Positions 1,356 to 21,977 of a stretch of 64,000 nucleotides of DNA are shown in pieces. Position numbers and translations under genes: made by a program. The notes under the pieces were generated by a model. It did not search any database and was not told the DNA's origin. It saw only the letters and a program-made list of their open reading frames with translations. The stretch is from an uncultured Methanobrevibacter sp. (GTDB lineage: Archaea; Methanobacteriota; Methanobacteria; Methanobacteriales; Methanobacteriaceae): contig NZ_CAMVEE010000004.1 in NCBI RefSeq assembly GCF_947166415.1, positions 1 through 64,000 on the forward strand, in the 5' to 3' direction. Within the stretch, counting starts at the first letter, position 1. Every line of letters starts with the position of its first letter.

Positions 1356-1877
1356 TCAGTAATCGTCGAATAACGCCCATATTTCAGGGTATTTTTTAGC
1401 TACAGCTTCATCGATTAATATGGATGCTTCTTTTGAAATACTAAACTCTGGTTCGGTTTTTCTTAAATATCTAAATACTGCAGAAGATCTTGATGACCAA
1501 AGTGTAATCCTTGGATTTTTATCAACTATCTCTTTAACTTCGGCTACATGTTCTTCCTGTATTTTGATTTCTTGTGGTGTCTGTAAATCCTCTTCGCTGC
1601 GTACAGCGCCAGATAAGTCTTCGGATGCTTCGCTATTTTCCTCATTTTCCTTGTCTTCTTCAACATCGTCTGAAACCTCTTCAGCAGTTACTTCCTCATT
1701 ATTTGATGAATCTTCTCCTTGATTACTCTCCTCTTCTAACTGTTCAAAAATGTTTTTATCTGATTCATCTTCATTTAATAACTCTTCCAGTGATTGAGTG
1801 GAATTACTGTCAAAATCTTCATTATAAAAATCAGGAATTAATGAAGCTAAGCCTTTACCAAGTCCCTTTTTCGCCAT
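1356..1877 (-). CDS. ParA-partner protein with ParB-like N-terminal motif
   Basis: A 173-aa protein whose start codon overlaps the parA stop codon (TAATG), so the two are translationally coupled. The first residues, KKGLGKGLASLIPDF, closely resemble the extreme N-terminus of bacterial ParB/Spo0J (GLGKG followed by a hydrophobic patch), the peptide that stimulates the ParA ATPase. Residues of about 20-115 are a very acidic, low-complexity linker rich in Glu, Asp and Ser. The last roughly 55 residues form a folded-looking basic/helical segment (ITLWSSRSSAVFRYL, then SISKEASILIDEAVAKKYPE) that could bind DNA. No ParB CTPase/HTH domain is present. The role as ParA activator and DNA adaptor is inferred from the N-terminal motif and gene coupling. 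Confidence 0.7.
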   Translation of the reverse strand: MAKKGLGKGLASLIPDFYNEDFDSNSTQSLEELLNEDESDKNIFEQLEEESNQGEDSSNNEEVTAEEVSDDVEEDKENEENSEASEDLSGAVRSEEDLQTPQEIKIQEEHVAEVKEIVDKNPRITLWSSRSSAVFRYLRKTEPEFSISKEASILIDEAVAKKYPEIWALFDDY

Positions 1878-2746
1878 TATTTACCACCTGTTTTTCGTTC
1901 TAAATTTCTTTGAATCATCTGGAATTGAGATTTAGCTTTTAAATCAAGATTTTTCTTAGCAACACTCAAATGAACATTTTCATCTCTTTGGATAATTTCC
2001 TTAGCTAATTTTAAATAAGCTTTTGTTCCGGTACTATCAGGATCATAAATCAAACAAGGCTTACCAAAACTAGGAGCTTCAGCTAATCTAATATTCCTTG
2101 GAATAATAGTTTTGAAAAGTAAATCTGTACCGCCAAAGTAATTCTTAAGCTCTCTGTGCACATCTTTACTGAGTCTAGTCCTTTTATCAAATAGAGTAAG
2201 GAGAATTCCCTTGATAGGAGTTGGACTTCTAAGCCTTTTTTCGACCAATTTTATTGTATTAATTAAATCAGCCACTCCTTCTAAAGCGTAATACTCAGCT
2301 TGGATTGGAATTAAAACACTATCGGAAGCTACTAATGCATTGACAGTAATTACACCTAATGAAGGAGGTAAATCTATGAATATATAGTCAAATAATGGAA
2401 CAACATCTTTTAAAGTATCTTTCAATACGATATGGTAATTGTCACGTTTGGAAAGTTCCATTCCAGCACCGCTGAGAGATATATTACTTGGGATAATAAA
2501 TAAATTTTTAATAAACGTAGGAATTGTTGCTTTTTTTATACTTATATCTCCCATAAGAGCATCGTAAATAGTGTTTTCTATTTTAGTTTTATCAATCCCA
2601 AAACTAGTTGTGGCATTAGCTTGAGGATCCATATCGACAACCAAAACAGATTTACCCATTACCGCTAAAGATGTCGCAGTATTTACAACAGTGGTTGTTT
2701 TTCCACAACCCCCTTTCTGATTCATAACCGCAATTACTTCACTCAT
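1877..2746 (-). CDS. parA: ParA/Soj family partition ATPase
   Basis: A 289-aa ParA/MinD superfamily ATPase. The deviant Walker A KGGCGKTT is at residues 11-18, the A' motif DMDPQAN at about 39-45, and a Walker B-like YIFIDLPPS at about 121-129. Its length fits chromosomal Soj-type ParA proteins without an N-terminal HTH. A GGAG Shine-Dalgarno lies upstream of the ATG. It is the first gene of a two-gene operon with the ParB-N-terminus-like protein, and its promoter side faces the AAGTTA repeat array. By family it should form ATP-dependent dimers on DNA and drive segregation of chromosome or cargo. The bound centromere is not known. Confidence 0.92.
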   Translation of the reverse strand: MSEVIAVMNQKGGCGKTTTVVNTATSLAVMGKSVLVVDMDPQANATTSFGIDKTKIENTIYDALMGDISIKKATIPTFIKNLFIIPSNISLSGAGMELSKRDNYHIVLKDTLKDVVPLFDYIFIDLPPSLGVITVNALVASDSVLIPIQAEYYALEGVADLINTIKLVEKRLRSPTPIKGILLTLFDKRTRLSKDVHRELKNYFGGTDLLFKTIIPRNIRLAEAPSFGKPCLIYDPDSTGTKAYLKLAKEIIQRDENVHLSVAKKNLDLKAKSQFQMIQRNLERKTGGK

Positions 2747-2775
2747 CTAAAGAATTCTCCTATTTCCATGATTTT

Positions 2776-3131
2776 AAGTTATCAGTTATGATTTATAACT
2801 TAAAAAGACTAATACTTAAAGAATAATTATTAAATTATTCAGTATAAGTTAAAAGAATTAAGTTATTTCGAGGAAATTAAAACTTAAAGGAAATAACTTA
2901 TCAGTTTTAACTTCTAAGGGATAGGAATTAAGTTTTAAGTTAAAACGTCAAAGTTATAAAAAATAAGTTTTAAGAAATAACTTATCATAACTAACTTTTA
3001 ACAAATAAGTTATATTTTATAACTTCTCTCTTATAAAGTATTTGTTTTCACAGATAAGTTAACAGTTATTAGTTAACACTTGCAACTTATCTTTAATAAG
3101 TTATAAGTTATAAGTTATAACAAAAAAGTTA
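2776..3131. repeat. AAGTTA hexamer array (candidate partition site or operator)
   Basis: This gene-free stretch between parA and trpB2 contains 17 copies of AAGTTA or its complement TAACTT. Direct copies start at 2776, 2846, 2860, 2937, 2951, 3007, 3056, 3098, 3105, 3112 and 3126. Inverse copies start at 2796, 2894, 2908, 2978, 2992 and 3020. Many occur as same-orientation pairs exactly 14 bp apart (2846/2860, 2894/2908, 2937/2951, 2978/2992), and the pairs alternate in orientation. Near-matches AAGTTT at 2930 and 2965 keep the 7/14-bp phasing. At base composition typical of this window about one copy would be expected. Such phasing suggests cooperative protein binding. A centromere-like function is an inference from the adjacent parA. 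Confidence 0.7.
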
Positions 3132-9047: not shown

Positions 9048-9081
9048 TTTATTATCCTTTTTTTTAGAGGTTATCACTTAT

Positions 9082-9101
9082 AAGTTATACCTTTTAAGTT
9101 A
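9082..9101. repeat. Outlying AAGTTA pair with 14-bp spacing
   Basis: Two direct AAGTTA copies (9082-9087 and 9096-9101) separated by 8 nt reproduce the spacing of the array next to parA. They lie between two convergent genes, where promoter function is unlikely. Confidence 0.45.
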
Positions 9102-9121
9102 TATCAATTAAAAAAATAAAT

Positions 9122-19248: not shown

Positions 19249-20184
19249 TTGGTTAGAATTTTTAAACTAAAAAACATAATTTCAATAAAAGACTTTGAAA
19301 GGGAAGATGTGGACTACATTCTTGATGAAGCATCTAAGCTAGAAGATATCGCTAAATCAAAAGAAAATTCTGATGAATTGAAAGGAAAAATATTAGGATT
19401 GATGTTTTTTGAACCATCAACCAGGACCAGACTCTCTTTTGAAACAGCCATGAAAAGATTGGATGGAAACTGCATCGGTTTTGAAAGCAGCGGATCCAGT
19501 TCCGTTTCAAAAGGTGAAAGCATAGCCGATACCGCAAAAATGTTTGAAGGATACAGCGATGCACTGGTAATAAGACACGAACTTGAAGGAGTTTCAAAAT
19601 TCATATCAGATATCGTTGACGTTCCTGTAATCAATGCGGGTGATGGTGCCGGACAACACCCAACACAGACCTTGCTTGACTTATACACAATAAAAAAGGA
19701 AATCGGATCTATAGATAACCTGAAAATAGCTTTAATTGGAGATTTGAAATTTGGACGTACCGTCCATTCACTATCAAACGCATTATGTTTATATGATAAC
19801 GTTAAAATCTATCTCGTATCCCCTCCAGAGCTCAAGATGCCTCAGGAAGTACTTCACGACCTGGACAAGACAAATGTCGTCTACGAAGAAGTGAATAACA
19901 TAGAAAGTATTATTGATGACGTTGATGTGCTGTATGTAACCAGGATACAAAAAGAGCGCTTTGGAGATATTGACGACTATTTAAAAATAAAAGGAGCTTA
20001 TATTATAAATAAAAAAATGCTTGAAGGCAAAGATGTTATAGTAATGCATCCTTTACCTAGAATTGATGAAATTGACACTGACGTCGATGATACAAAATAC
20101 AATAAGTATTTCATTCAAGCGTTTAATGCAGTTCCAGTTAGAATGGCAATTTTAAAAACATTGATAAAAAACAACCCTAAATAG
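19249..20184 (+). CDS. pyrB: Aspartate carbamoyltransferase catalytic subunit
   Basis: A 311-aa PyrB catalysing carbamoyl phosphate plus aspartate to carbamoyl aspartate in pyrimidine synthesis. The carbamoyl-phosphate motif [12 protein letters not shown] is at about 54-65, [17 protein letters not shown] mid-protein and HPLPRIDEI near the C-terminus. pyrI is not adjacent. No ATG fits the N-terminus; a TTG at 19249 is used here and lacks a well-spaced ribosome-binding site, so the exact start is uncertain. It ends in an 8-nt convergent overlap with orc1/cdc6. Confidence 0.93.
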
Positions 20185-20199
20185 AGAAAAGGGTTGTTT
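20169..20199. terminator. Bidirectional terminator hairpin, pyrB/cdc6
   Basis: AAACAACCC (20169-20177) pairs with GGGTTGTTT (20191-20199), a 9-bp stem with a 13-nt loop over the overlapping 3' ends of two convergent genes. Confidence 0.55.
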
Positions 20200-21343
20200 C
20201 AAGCAATTCTTCATCACATTGGAGTTTGATTATATTTGTTCTTCCTTTTCCACGGCCACGTGAAATTGTGTTTGTAGAAATGATACCCAAAAGTTCAAGC
20301 TCATTTATAAAATCAAAAATCCTTCTGTAGGTAACTGCATCTTTTTTGGATATTGACTGATATTCTTCATATAGTTTTCCTGAAGTGATTTCCTCATTAT
20401 TTTTTGTTAAGTTCAAAATCGCTTCAAGAAGCCTTTGCTGTTGTAAAGGTAAAGTCTGGATAATTTCAGTCACTTTATTGAATTCTATTCTATCCTTCGC
20501 TTTTCTTACATGTTCGCCTGTAACCTTTTCAGAATCATCATCATAAGCCAATTCACCTGCATTCTTAAGTAAATCTAAGGCGTATCTAGCATCACCCTCT
20601 TCTTTTGCAGCCATGGCAGAACATAAAGGAATGACATCATCATCCAAAACATCATCATAAAATGCCAATTTAGCCCTTTCGGATAAAATATCTGATAATT
20701 GATCTGCACCATAAGGAGGGAATACAATTTCCTTATCGTTTAAACTGCTGGTCACTCTGGACTTGATCAGATTCTTGAAATCGAGATAGTTACTGATTGA
20801 AAGAACAGAGACATTGTCTGTTCTGGTCAATGTGTATAAGATACCGTCGCCATCCTTATCAAGCAGAATGTCGATTTCATCTAAAATGACAATCAATGTT
20901 ATTTTTCTACCGAAAACATCCCTTTTGCTTAGAATGTCTCTGAAGGTATTTACAATTTCACCTTTTGTCCAACCCCTATTTGGAACATCCCTTCCAAGCT
21001 GTTGGCATAATTGAGCAATGACCTGATATTCAGTAGTATAATCTGTACATCTAATATATTCAACTTCTACACGAACCTTCTTGTTTGAAGCAGCATCCTT
21101 AAGTTGTTCACTAGCAAATTTTGAAGCTGCAGTTTTTCCGGTTCCTGTCTTTCCATAAAGGGTAACATTTGAAGGTGTTACTTCATTTAATGCATCAACC
21201 CAAATTTTAGCGATATCAGTGATTTGTTCTTCCCTGTGAACTAATTTGTTAGGTAAATATCTGTGATCTAAAGGAATCTTATTTTTGAATATATTTTTAC
21301 TTGTGGTTGTTTCTGATTCTATTTTATCGAATATGTTTGACAT
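20177..21343 (-). CDS. cdc6: Orc1/Cdc6 replication initiator
   Basis: A 388-aa Orc1/Cdc6 family AAA+ ATPase. Walker A GKTGTGKT is at 64-71, Walker B LDEID at 154-158, a sensor-like region at about 175-190 and a C-terminal winged-helix domain from about residue 300. It binds ORB repeats at the origin and helps load MCM. It is transcribed away from the 650-bp repeat-rich spacer at 21344-21992, the usual arrangement for an archaeal initiator next to its origin. A GGTG ribosome-binding site precedes the ATG. Confidence 0.95.
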
Positions 21344-21654: not shown

Positions 21655-21678
21655 TTTCAAGTGTAAAATCTATGAAAA
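21655..21678 (+). repeat. Extended ORB copy 1
   Basis: TTTCAAGTGTAAA followed by ATCTATGAAAA. It is identical to copy 2 at 23 of 24 positions, showing the repeat extends beyond the 13-bp core. Confidence 0.85.
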
Positions 21679-21754
21679 AACCTTGAAAATAAGGCGTATC
21701 TGAGCTTGAAATCATATGAAATGATGGAAAATTGAAAAGAGTGAGAGGGATGCA

Positions 21755-21769
21755 TTGCAAGTGTATACA
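21755..21769 (+). repeat. ORB variant
   Basis: TTGCAAGTGTATACA keeps the central CAAGTGTA of the ORB core in the same orientation as its neighbours. Confidence 0.6.
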
Positions 21770-21802
21770 ATTTTGTCCGCCAGGCAATTTTCAAGACATG
21801 TA

Positions 21803-21826
21803 TTTCAAGTGTAAAGTCTATGAAAA
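21803..21826 (+). repeat. Extended ORB copy 2
   Basis: TTTCAAGTGTAAA followed by GTCTATGAAAA. It lies at the left edge of the A+T-rich tract. Confidence 0.85.
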
Positions 21827-21908
21827 ATAGTCTATTGGATAAATAAATAATAAATAAATAATTAATTATCGTTTAAAATAAAAATAAAGAGCAAATTGAA
21901 AAGATAGA

Positions 21909-21923
21909 TTTCAAGTGTTTACA
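21909..21923 (+). repeat. ORB variant right of the A+T tract
   Basis: TTTCAAGTGTTTACA, followed by a GATGAAA that echoes the TATGAAA flank of the two extended copies. Confidence 0.65.
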
Positions 21924-21964
21924 GATGAAATGCACCTCTTCAATCTTAGAAGACCCTCGTAAGG

Positions 21965-21977
21965 GTTATACTTGAAA
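21965..21977 (-). repeat. Inverted ORB variant
   Basis: GTTATACTTGAAA faces the other repeats. It overlaps a small ACCCT-CGTA-AGGGT hairpin (21953-21966). Confidence 0.55.

Follow-up and report, generated by a model that had tools for sequence, protein, structure and literature searches.

A SegAB locus in a Methanobrevibacter-like archaeon with a strict 7-bp lattice as its putative centromere

The locus described here lies in a stretch of 64,000 nucleotides from an uncultured Methanobrevibacter sp., a methanogen of the gut (contig NZ_CAMVEE010000004.1), the whole of which is referred to as the window. Two overlapping genes on the minus strand stand beside a long series of 7-bp cells, and the main orc1/cdc6 gene is found in the same window. 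The features are as follows.

1356..1877, minus strand: segB, 173 aa, from its ORF and a profile match to S. solfataricus SegB
segB, aa 4-15: N-terminal ParA-activating motif (putative), KGLGKGLASLIP
segB, about aa 16-105: variable acidic linker
segB, about aa 108-172: C-terminal SegB domain
1877..2746, minus strand: segA (parA), 289 aa, a ParA-type ATPase with Walker A KGGCGKT (Pfam AAA_31, 4.1e-62)
2775..3131, no strand: heptad lattice, 24 cells TAASTTA with at least 6 of 7 matches in one 7-bp register, among them the 17 AAGTTA/TAACTT motifs; putative centromere for SegB and operator of segAB
3094..3120: part of the lattice with the best match, TTATAASTTATAA twice exactly and once with one mismatch, overlapping in register
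9071..9104: candidate minor site, in-register TCACTTA TAAGTTA TACCTTT TAAGTTA, intergenic, 6 kb from the main array
20177..21343, minus strand: main orc1/cdc6 (TIGR02928, E = 4.3e-123), with the lattice 18 kb away
21655..21977: repeats TTTCAAGTGTAA resembling origin boxes, two of them exact and the others differing at 1-2 positions, upstream of orc1/cdc6

The 3' end of segA and the 5' end of segB share one base, at 1877, in keeping with the coupling of parA to the 173-aa ORF claimed in a first-pass annotation of this DNA. The two genes are adjacent in the loci read among relatives, and segB was found in 108 of 115 genomes and in 19 of 19 genera of the phylum. The 173-aa protein has no usable match in Pfam or NCBIfam, so that family libraries by themselves would leave it "unknown", and its C-terminal domain had been called new. 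It is not: a search of the PDB with a profile of 11 orthologues (hmmsearch) matched this domain to S. solfataricus SegB (7duv) at E = 3.8e-14 and to a chain of the SegB-DNA complex (7dv2) at E = 5.6e-11, and because the profile finds both structures the protein is named SegB here; a new protein family for the ORF was considered and dropped on the same match. Judged by homology, the protein is a SegB orthologue and its C-terminal domain is homologous to that of the characterised SegB. The homology of the C-terminal domain to solved structures of the DNA-binding ribbon-helix-helix (RHH) fold is strong in the profile search. An AF2 model built from 11 sequences was poor (pLDDT 59), the RHH strand being absent from the monomer; 7duv and 7dv2 head the fold search made with it, each match being weak (E = 0.3-1.3). 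The linker, acidic in the window as had been claimed, differs widely in length among lineages and has low confidence in AF2, as disorder would give. One genome (G328 C1:478442-478741) carries a second, short SegB-like gene (107 aa) beside the normal one, perhaps of mobile-element origin.

The best solved match of SegA is the M. xanthus chromosomal ParA 8ray (E = 1.9e-72), the match to S. solfataricus SegA 7dut being far weaker (E = 2.3e-17). The homologies of both proteins bear out a ParA-based segregation system, which is what the first-pass annotation had proposed, but not its further claim that the system is a distinct one. On those homologies the gene pair is SegAB, a known archaeal chromosome-segregation system described in Sulfolobales and already recorded in Euryarchaeota (PMC5120986, PMC12284271).

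The N-terminus of SegB in the window reads MAKKGLGKGLASLIP, and L6, G7, G9, L10 and L13 of its motif are invariant across aligned SegB orthologues. By inspection this N-terminus is like the peptide with which bacterial ParB activates ParA, in support of the earlier claim that a ParB-type activating N-terminus has been joined to a protein otherwise unlike ParB; a query with the 25 N-terminal residues gave no match in the PDB. To speak of "a ParB lacking its CTPase/HTH core", as had been done, is misleading; the ParB-like peptide is present, but the protein is SegB, and neither a ParB/Srx CTPase nor an HTH domain was found in it by way of a Pfam or NCBIfam ParB match. SegA for its part retains a tyrosine and a glutamate equivalent to Y81 and E117 of M. 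xanthus ParA, which are invariant residues flanking the ParB arginine pocket in that organism, where a basic residue in the ParB peptide is needed for ATPase stimulation (PMC12462528). Methanothermobacter-like SegBs (e.g. L044, L045, L048) have GLGMGL, without the central K/R, and this form, an exception, counts against the part of the explanation offered below in which the peptide activates SegA.

The gap between segA and the trpB-like gene is 403 bp long, of which the AT-rich (80%) array takes up 357 bp, covering the segA promoter region and keeping strict register out to the far, trpB side. Between 2776 and 3131 there are exactly 17 AAGTTA/TAACTT motifs, the number originally reported; 1,000 dinucleotide shuffles of the intergenic region averaged 2.1 and reached 8 at most. 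With NAAGTTA/TAACTTN as the test cell, a single 7-bp register over 355 bp holds all 17 motifs, and the adjacent spacings are multiples of 7 in 16 of 16 cases. The imperfect cells are degenerate copies in the same frame, with a mean of 4.86 matches out of 7 compared to 2.05-2.39 in the six other frames, and cells with at least 6 of 7 matches number 24 in frame and one in all other frames together. The consensus drawn from many genomes is TAA(G/C)TTA (TAASTTA), a pseudo-palindrome of 7 bp whose middle base is G or C, and the extended site unit in the lattice is TTA-TAASTTA-TAA. The same-orientation pairs 14 bp apart, alternating in direction, that first drew attention to the array are there (2846/2860 plus, 2894/2908 minus, 2937/2951 plus, 2978/2992 minus), but their 14-bp phase is a by-product of the 7-bp lattice, and the direction of a motif is its central G/C alone because the cell is near-palindromic. 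The candidate minor site at 9071..9104 has three strong cells, which is close to the level that control consensuses also attain.

The segA-side gap was read in about 30 genomes of the same genus and in further genera. The lattice is kept in every same-genus intergenic region examined, with 8-34 AAGTTA motifs per complete trpB-segA gap throughout the genus as opposed to the 0.6-2.6 expected from base composition, and the arrays of strong cells run to 24-45 cells over 350-770 bp. Several relatives have perfect single-register arrays (34/34, 19/19, 18/18, 17/17 and 16/16 motifs). Over 95 distinct segA-upstream regions, 926 of the 1,028 adjacent spacings of 120 bp or less are multiples of 7, where one in 7 would be expected; most same-genus arrays share descent with few indels, so these are not 95 independent tests. 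The lattice is also present in other genera, and more distant members with other cell arrangements hold all their motifs in one register too (L137, 11; L142, 10; L153, 13; L220, 11). Per-position conservation across 19 species was 0.92-1.00 for cells with at least 6 of 7 matches and 0.83-0.93 for weak cells. Genome-wide scans were made with exact patterns and over selected stretches, and among the matches listed for AAGTTA pairs the segAB locus is the only dense in-register group.

In two other families of the order the array is down to 5-6 cells that keep the register, immediately ahead of segA, and no more than one cell falls outside it. The suggestion that gene pair and array would be conserved across Methanobacteriales held when checked. 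In a genome of another phylum, whose SegB is 38-42% identical, TAACTTA-TCACTTA-TCAGTGA stands in register before segA. Promoter-proximal cells are not universal, since no cells precede segA in one segAB region of the same class (L053), that of the genome G049, which is Methanothermus-like; this label and Methanothermobacter-like are inferred from kinship and sequence. In G049 (1,243,342 bp), whose segAB is at 1.043 Mb, a triplet TTATAAGTTATAACTTATAAGTTATAA, on one strand or the other, occurs at six scattered places, all of them within 1.0736-1.1365 Mb; exact TTATAASTTATAA is found 18 times and the reversed control pattern not once. Five of the six triplets (C1:1073573-1136474; L202-L204) have a TTTCAAGTGTAA resembling an origin box some 30 bp away; the combined element points one way at the first three sites (1.0736-1.0807 Mb) and the opposite way further on (1.092-1.136 Mb). 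Two Methanothermobacter-like genomes contain a double palindrome, AAGTTATAACTTATAAGTTATAACTT, at 8.6 kb from orc1/cdc6 and about 31 kb from segAB (L205 10363-10388; L206 10381-10406), which is probably a second SegB site.

The TTTCAAGTGTAA repeats upstream of the main orc1/cdc6 are taken here to be Methanothermobacter-type origin boxes. The distance from lattice to orc1/cdc6 is 23-25 kb in closed genomes of the genus and 40-42 kb in three Methanothermobacter-like genomes; in two other genomes segAB is about 200 and 310 kb from orc1/cdc6, which counts against a link to the origin. For G029, the closed genome of a relative, the sign of the GC skew switches at roughly 20-40 kb; the lattice lies at 17.8 kb, the orc1/cdc6 gene at 39.8 kb and origin boxes at 41.2 kb, and no other lattice of more than three cells was found in the 300 kb read. 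In the Methanothermus-like genome the skew had too much noise for the origin to be placed. In two genomes outside the phylum (L168, L171) segB is convergent with, and directly beside, an orc1/cdc6-like gene, as judged from their translations. More than 20 Methanobrevibacter loci (e.g. L011 1437-1448, L058 8297-8308) have one exact TTTCAAGTGTAA some 55 bp past the end of segB; in the window itself there is none just after segB. An AAGTTA cluster near a second gene, orc1/cdc6-2 (G000 C14:32.2-32.5 kb; G029 271.7 kb), was considered as a second centromere and rejected: it is an array of origin boxes, in which the tail of TTTCAAGTGTAA overlaps TAACTT, and spacings are multiples of 7 inside units only, the register being lost between them. 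Most boxes of this array (L087 5190-5470 in G000, L207 1714-1824 in G029) are followed by TAACTT-type heptads, and it lies 3-4 kb from the second orc1/cdc6, where it is possibly a second origin or an Orc1 regulatory site.

Sulfolobales SegB, an RHH protein, recognises TCTAGASTCTAGA (TCTAGA-S-TCTAGA), whose core AGA S TCT hardly varies (PMC12284271). The window has no match to this site at up to 2 mismatches, and the five at 3 mismatches are below expectation and none is near segAB. A 2025 study of SegAB found no convincing site near segAB of Thermococcus sibiricus and expected quite different euryarchaeal sequences, and because the euryarchaeal site was already thought to differ, the Sulfolobales site is treated here as lineage-specific rather than as family-defining (PMC12284271). 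The 13-mer can be read as one 7-bp cell, AGASTCT, flanked by the facing halves of two neighbours, the same layout as TTA-TAASTTA-TAA, and it follows from this shared layout that the DNA architecture of the lattice matches SegB in another base code. The system in the window shares with Sulfolobales SegAB the overlapping segA-segB, a homologous SegB C-terminus, pseudo-palindromic sites upstream of segA, the central S and the 7-bp spacing. However, the Sulfolobales sites are 13 bp long with AGASTCT, mostly intragenic and chromosome-wide, whereas here tens of contiguous TAASTTA cells form one origin-proximal array; SegB here has a ParB-like GLGKGL N-terminus, and SegA is nearer to the chromosomal ParA of bacteria than to its Sulfolobus namesake.

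A second parallel is with the delta-omega system of plasmid pSM19035, whose RHH ParB binds contiguous 7-bp repeats in either orientation, at least four being required for ParA activation, at sites overlapping partition-gene promoters (PMC9499535). Common to both are a centromere binder of RHH type, putatively so in SegB, and contiguous repeats of either orientation in one 7-bp register over partition-gene promoters, but pSM19035 is a bacterial plasmid, its repeat is the non-palindromic WATCACW, and there are 7-10 repeats per site (PMC9499535). A PDB profile search gave no match between omega and SegB, and the likeness is one of mechanism only and not of membership. With bacterial chromosomal ParABS the locus shares the M. 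xanthus ParA as the closest match to SegA, an N-terminal peptide that looks like the ParA-activating one and an origin-proximal centromere, if the array is one; it differs in that SegB lacks the CTPase and HTH domains of ParB and that there is no parS-like 16-mer, parS (TGTTTCACGTGAAACA) having no match at up to 3 mismatches.

Very probably the locus encodes the SegAB machinery that partitions the chromosome of a Methanobrevibacter-like archaeon, with the array as an origin-proximal SegB centromere and operator; the centromere-like character first ascribed to the array is supported. SegB dimers would bind the 7-bp TAASTTA cells through the putative C-terminal RHH domain, and since the 7-bp register runs on from cell to cell without a break, adjacent dimers could pack side by side into a long, ordered nucleoprotein stretch some 18 kb from the origin. 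Flexible acidic linkers would then project the N-terminal GLGKGL peptides toward nucleoid-held SegA-ATP dimers, whose ATPase the peptides may stimulate, so that origin regions would move along a SegA gradient by analogy with ParABS. As the array spans the segA promoter region, SegB probably represses its own operon.

That last role might be the only one. The array would then be solely an autoregulatory operator and promoter of segAB, with the segregation sites elsewhere or with SegB acting mainly as a repressor and chromosome organiser. Its overlap with the promoter region of segA and the mere 5-6 cells before segA in some families are in keeping with this, as are the sites ahead of segAB that SegB binds in Sulfolobus too, the literature allowing a regulatory role (PMC5120986). 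It is nevertheless unlikely, as the number of strong cells and the length of the arrays in the genus are far beyond the needs of an operator, the register is maintained to the trpB side, and like cells occur away from segAB in the six Methanothermus-like triplets and the Methanothermobacter-like double palindrome.

The AT-richness of the array and its distance of 18-25 kb from orc1/cdc6 in the genus could also suggest a part of the replication origin, that is an AT-rich unwinding region or a binding region for Orc1/Cdc6. This is very improbable given that the array has no exact origin boxes, which are found at 21.65-21.98 kb beside orc1/cdc6, and that the skew of the closed relative turns near that gene (at a resolution of about 20 kb). 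Hardly credible is a neutral tandem repeat, a decaying and functionless satellite produced by 7-bp slippage, in spite of the low-complexity, AT-rich DNA and of recent larger duplications in some arrays (L081): virtually every genome of the genus has the array at this locus, its strong cells are more conserved than its weak ones, and the 300 kb of the relative hold no comparable lattice elsewhere.

No report of the TAASTTA lattice was found in the literature searched, which covered subscription papers only in small part, and the DNA side of the SegAB reading looks new, that is, a known partition pair with a new and unusually regular putative centromere. A wider proposal, held tentatively and with somewhat more doubt than belief, is that SegB sites everywhere are made of one kind of pseudo-palindromic 7-bp cell, with G/C in the middle, recoded by lineage (AGASTCT in Sulfolobales, TAASTTA in Methanobacteria), and that Methanobrevibacter would have gathered them in one origin-proximal lattice holding tens of SegB dimers in strict register, an archaeal point centromere working through a continuous protein filament and not through sliding clamps in the manner of ParB.

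Chromosome segregation in archaea is largely open, and the target of SegB was previously known in Sulfolobales only. The lattice is an exact and falsifiable candidate for the SegB site of a large group of methanogens that includes major gut archaea, and its register offers a simple test system for cooperative assembly of SegB. Six dispersed triplets, promoter clusters and one long array make up a natural series for the study of centromere evolution, and the lattice would, if the proposal is true, supply the missing SegB target site for a whole archaeal group.
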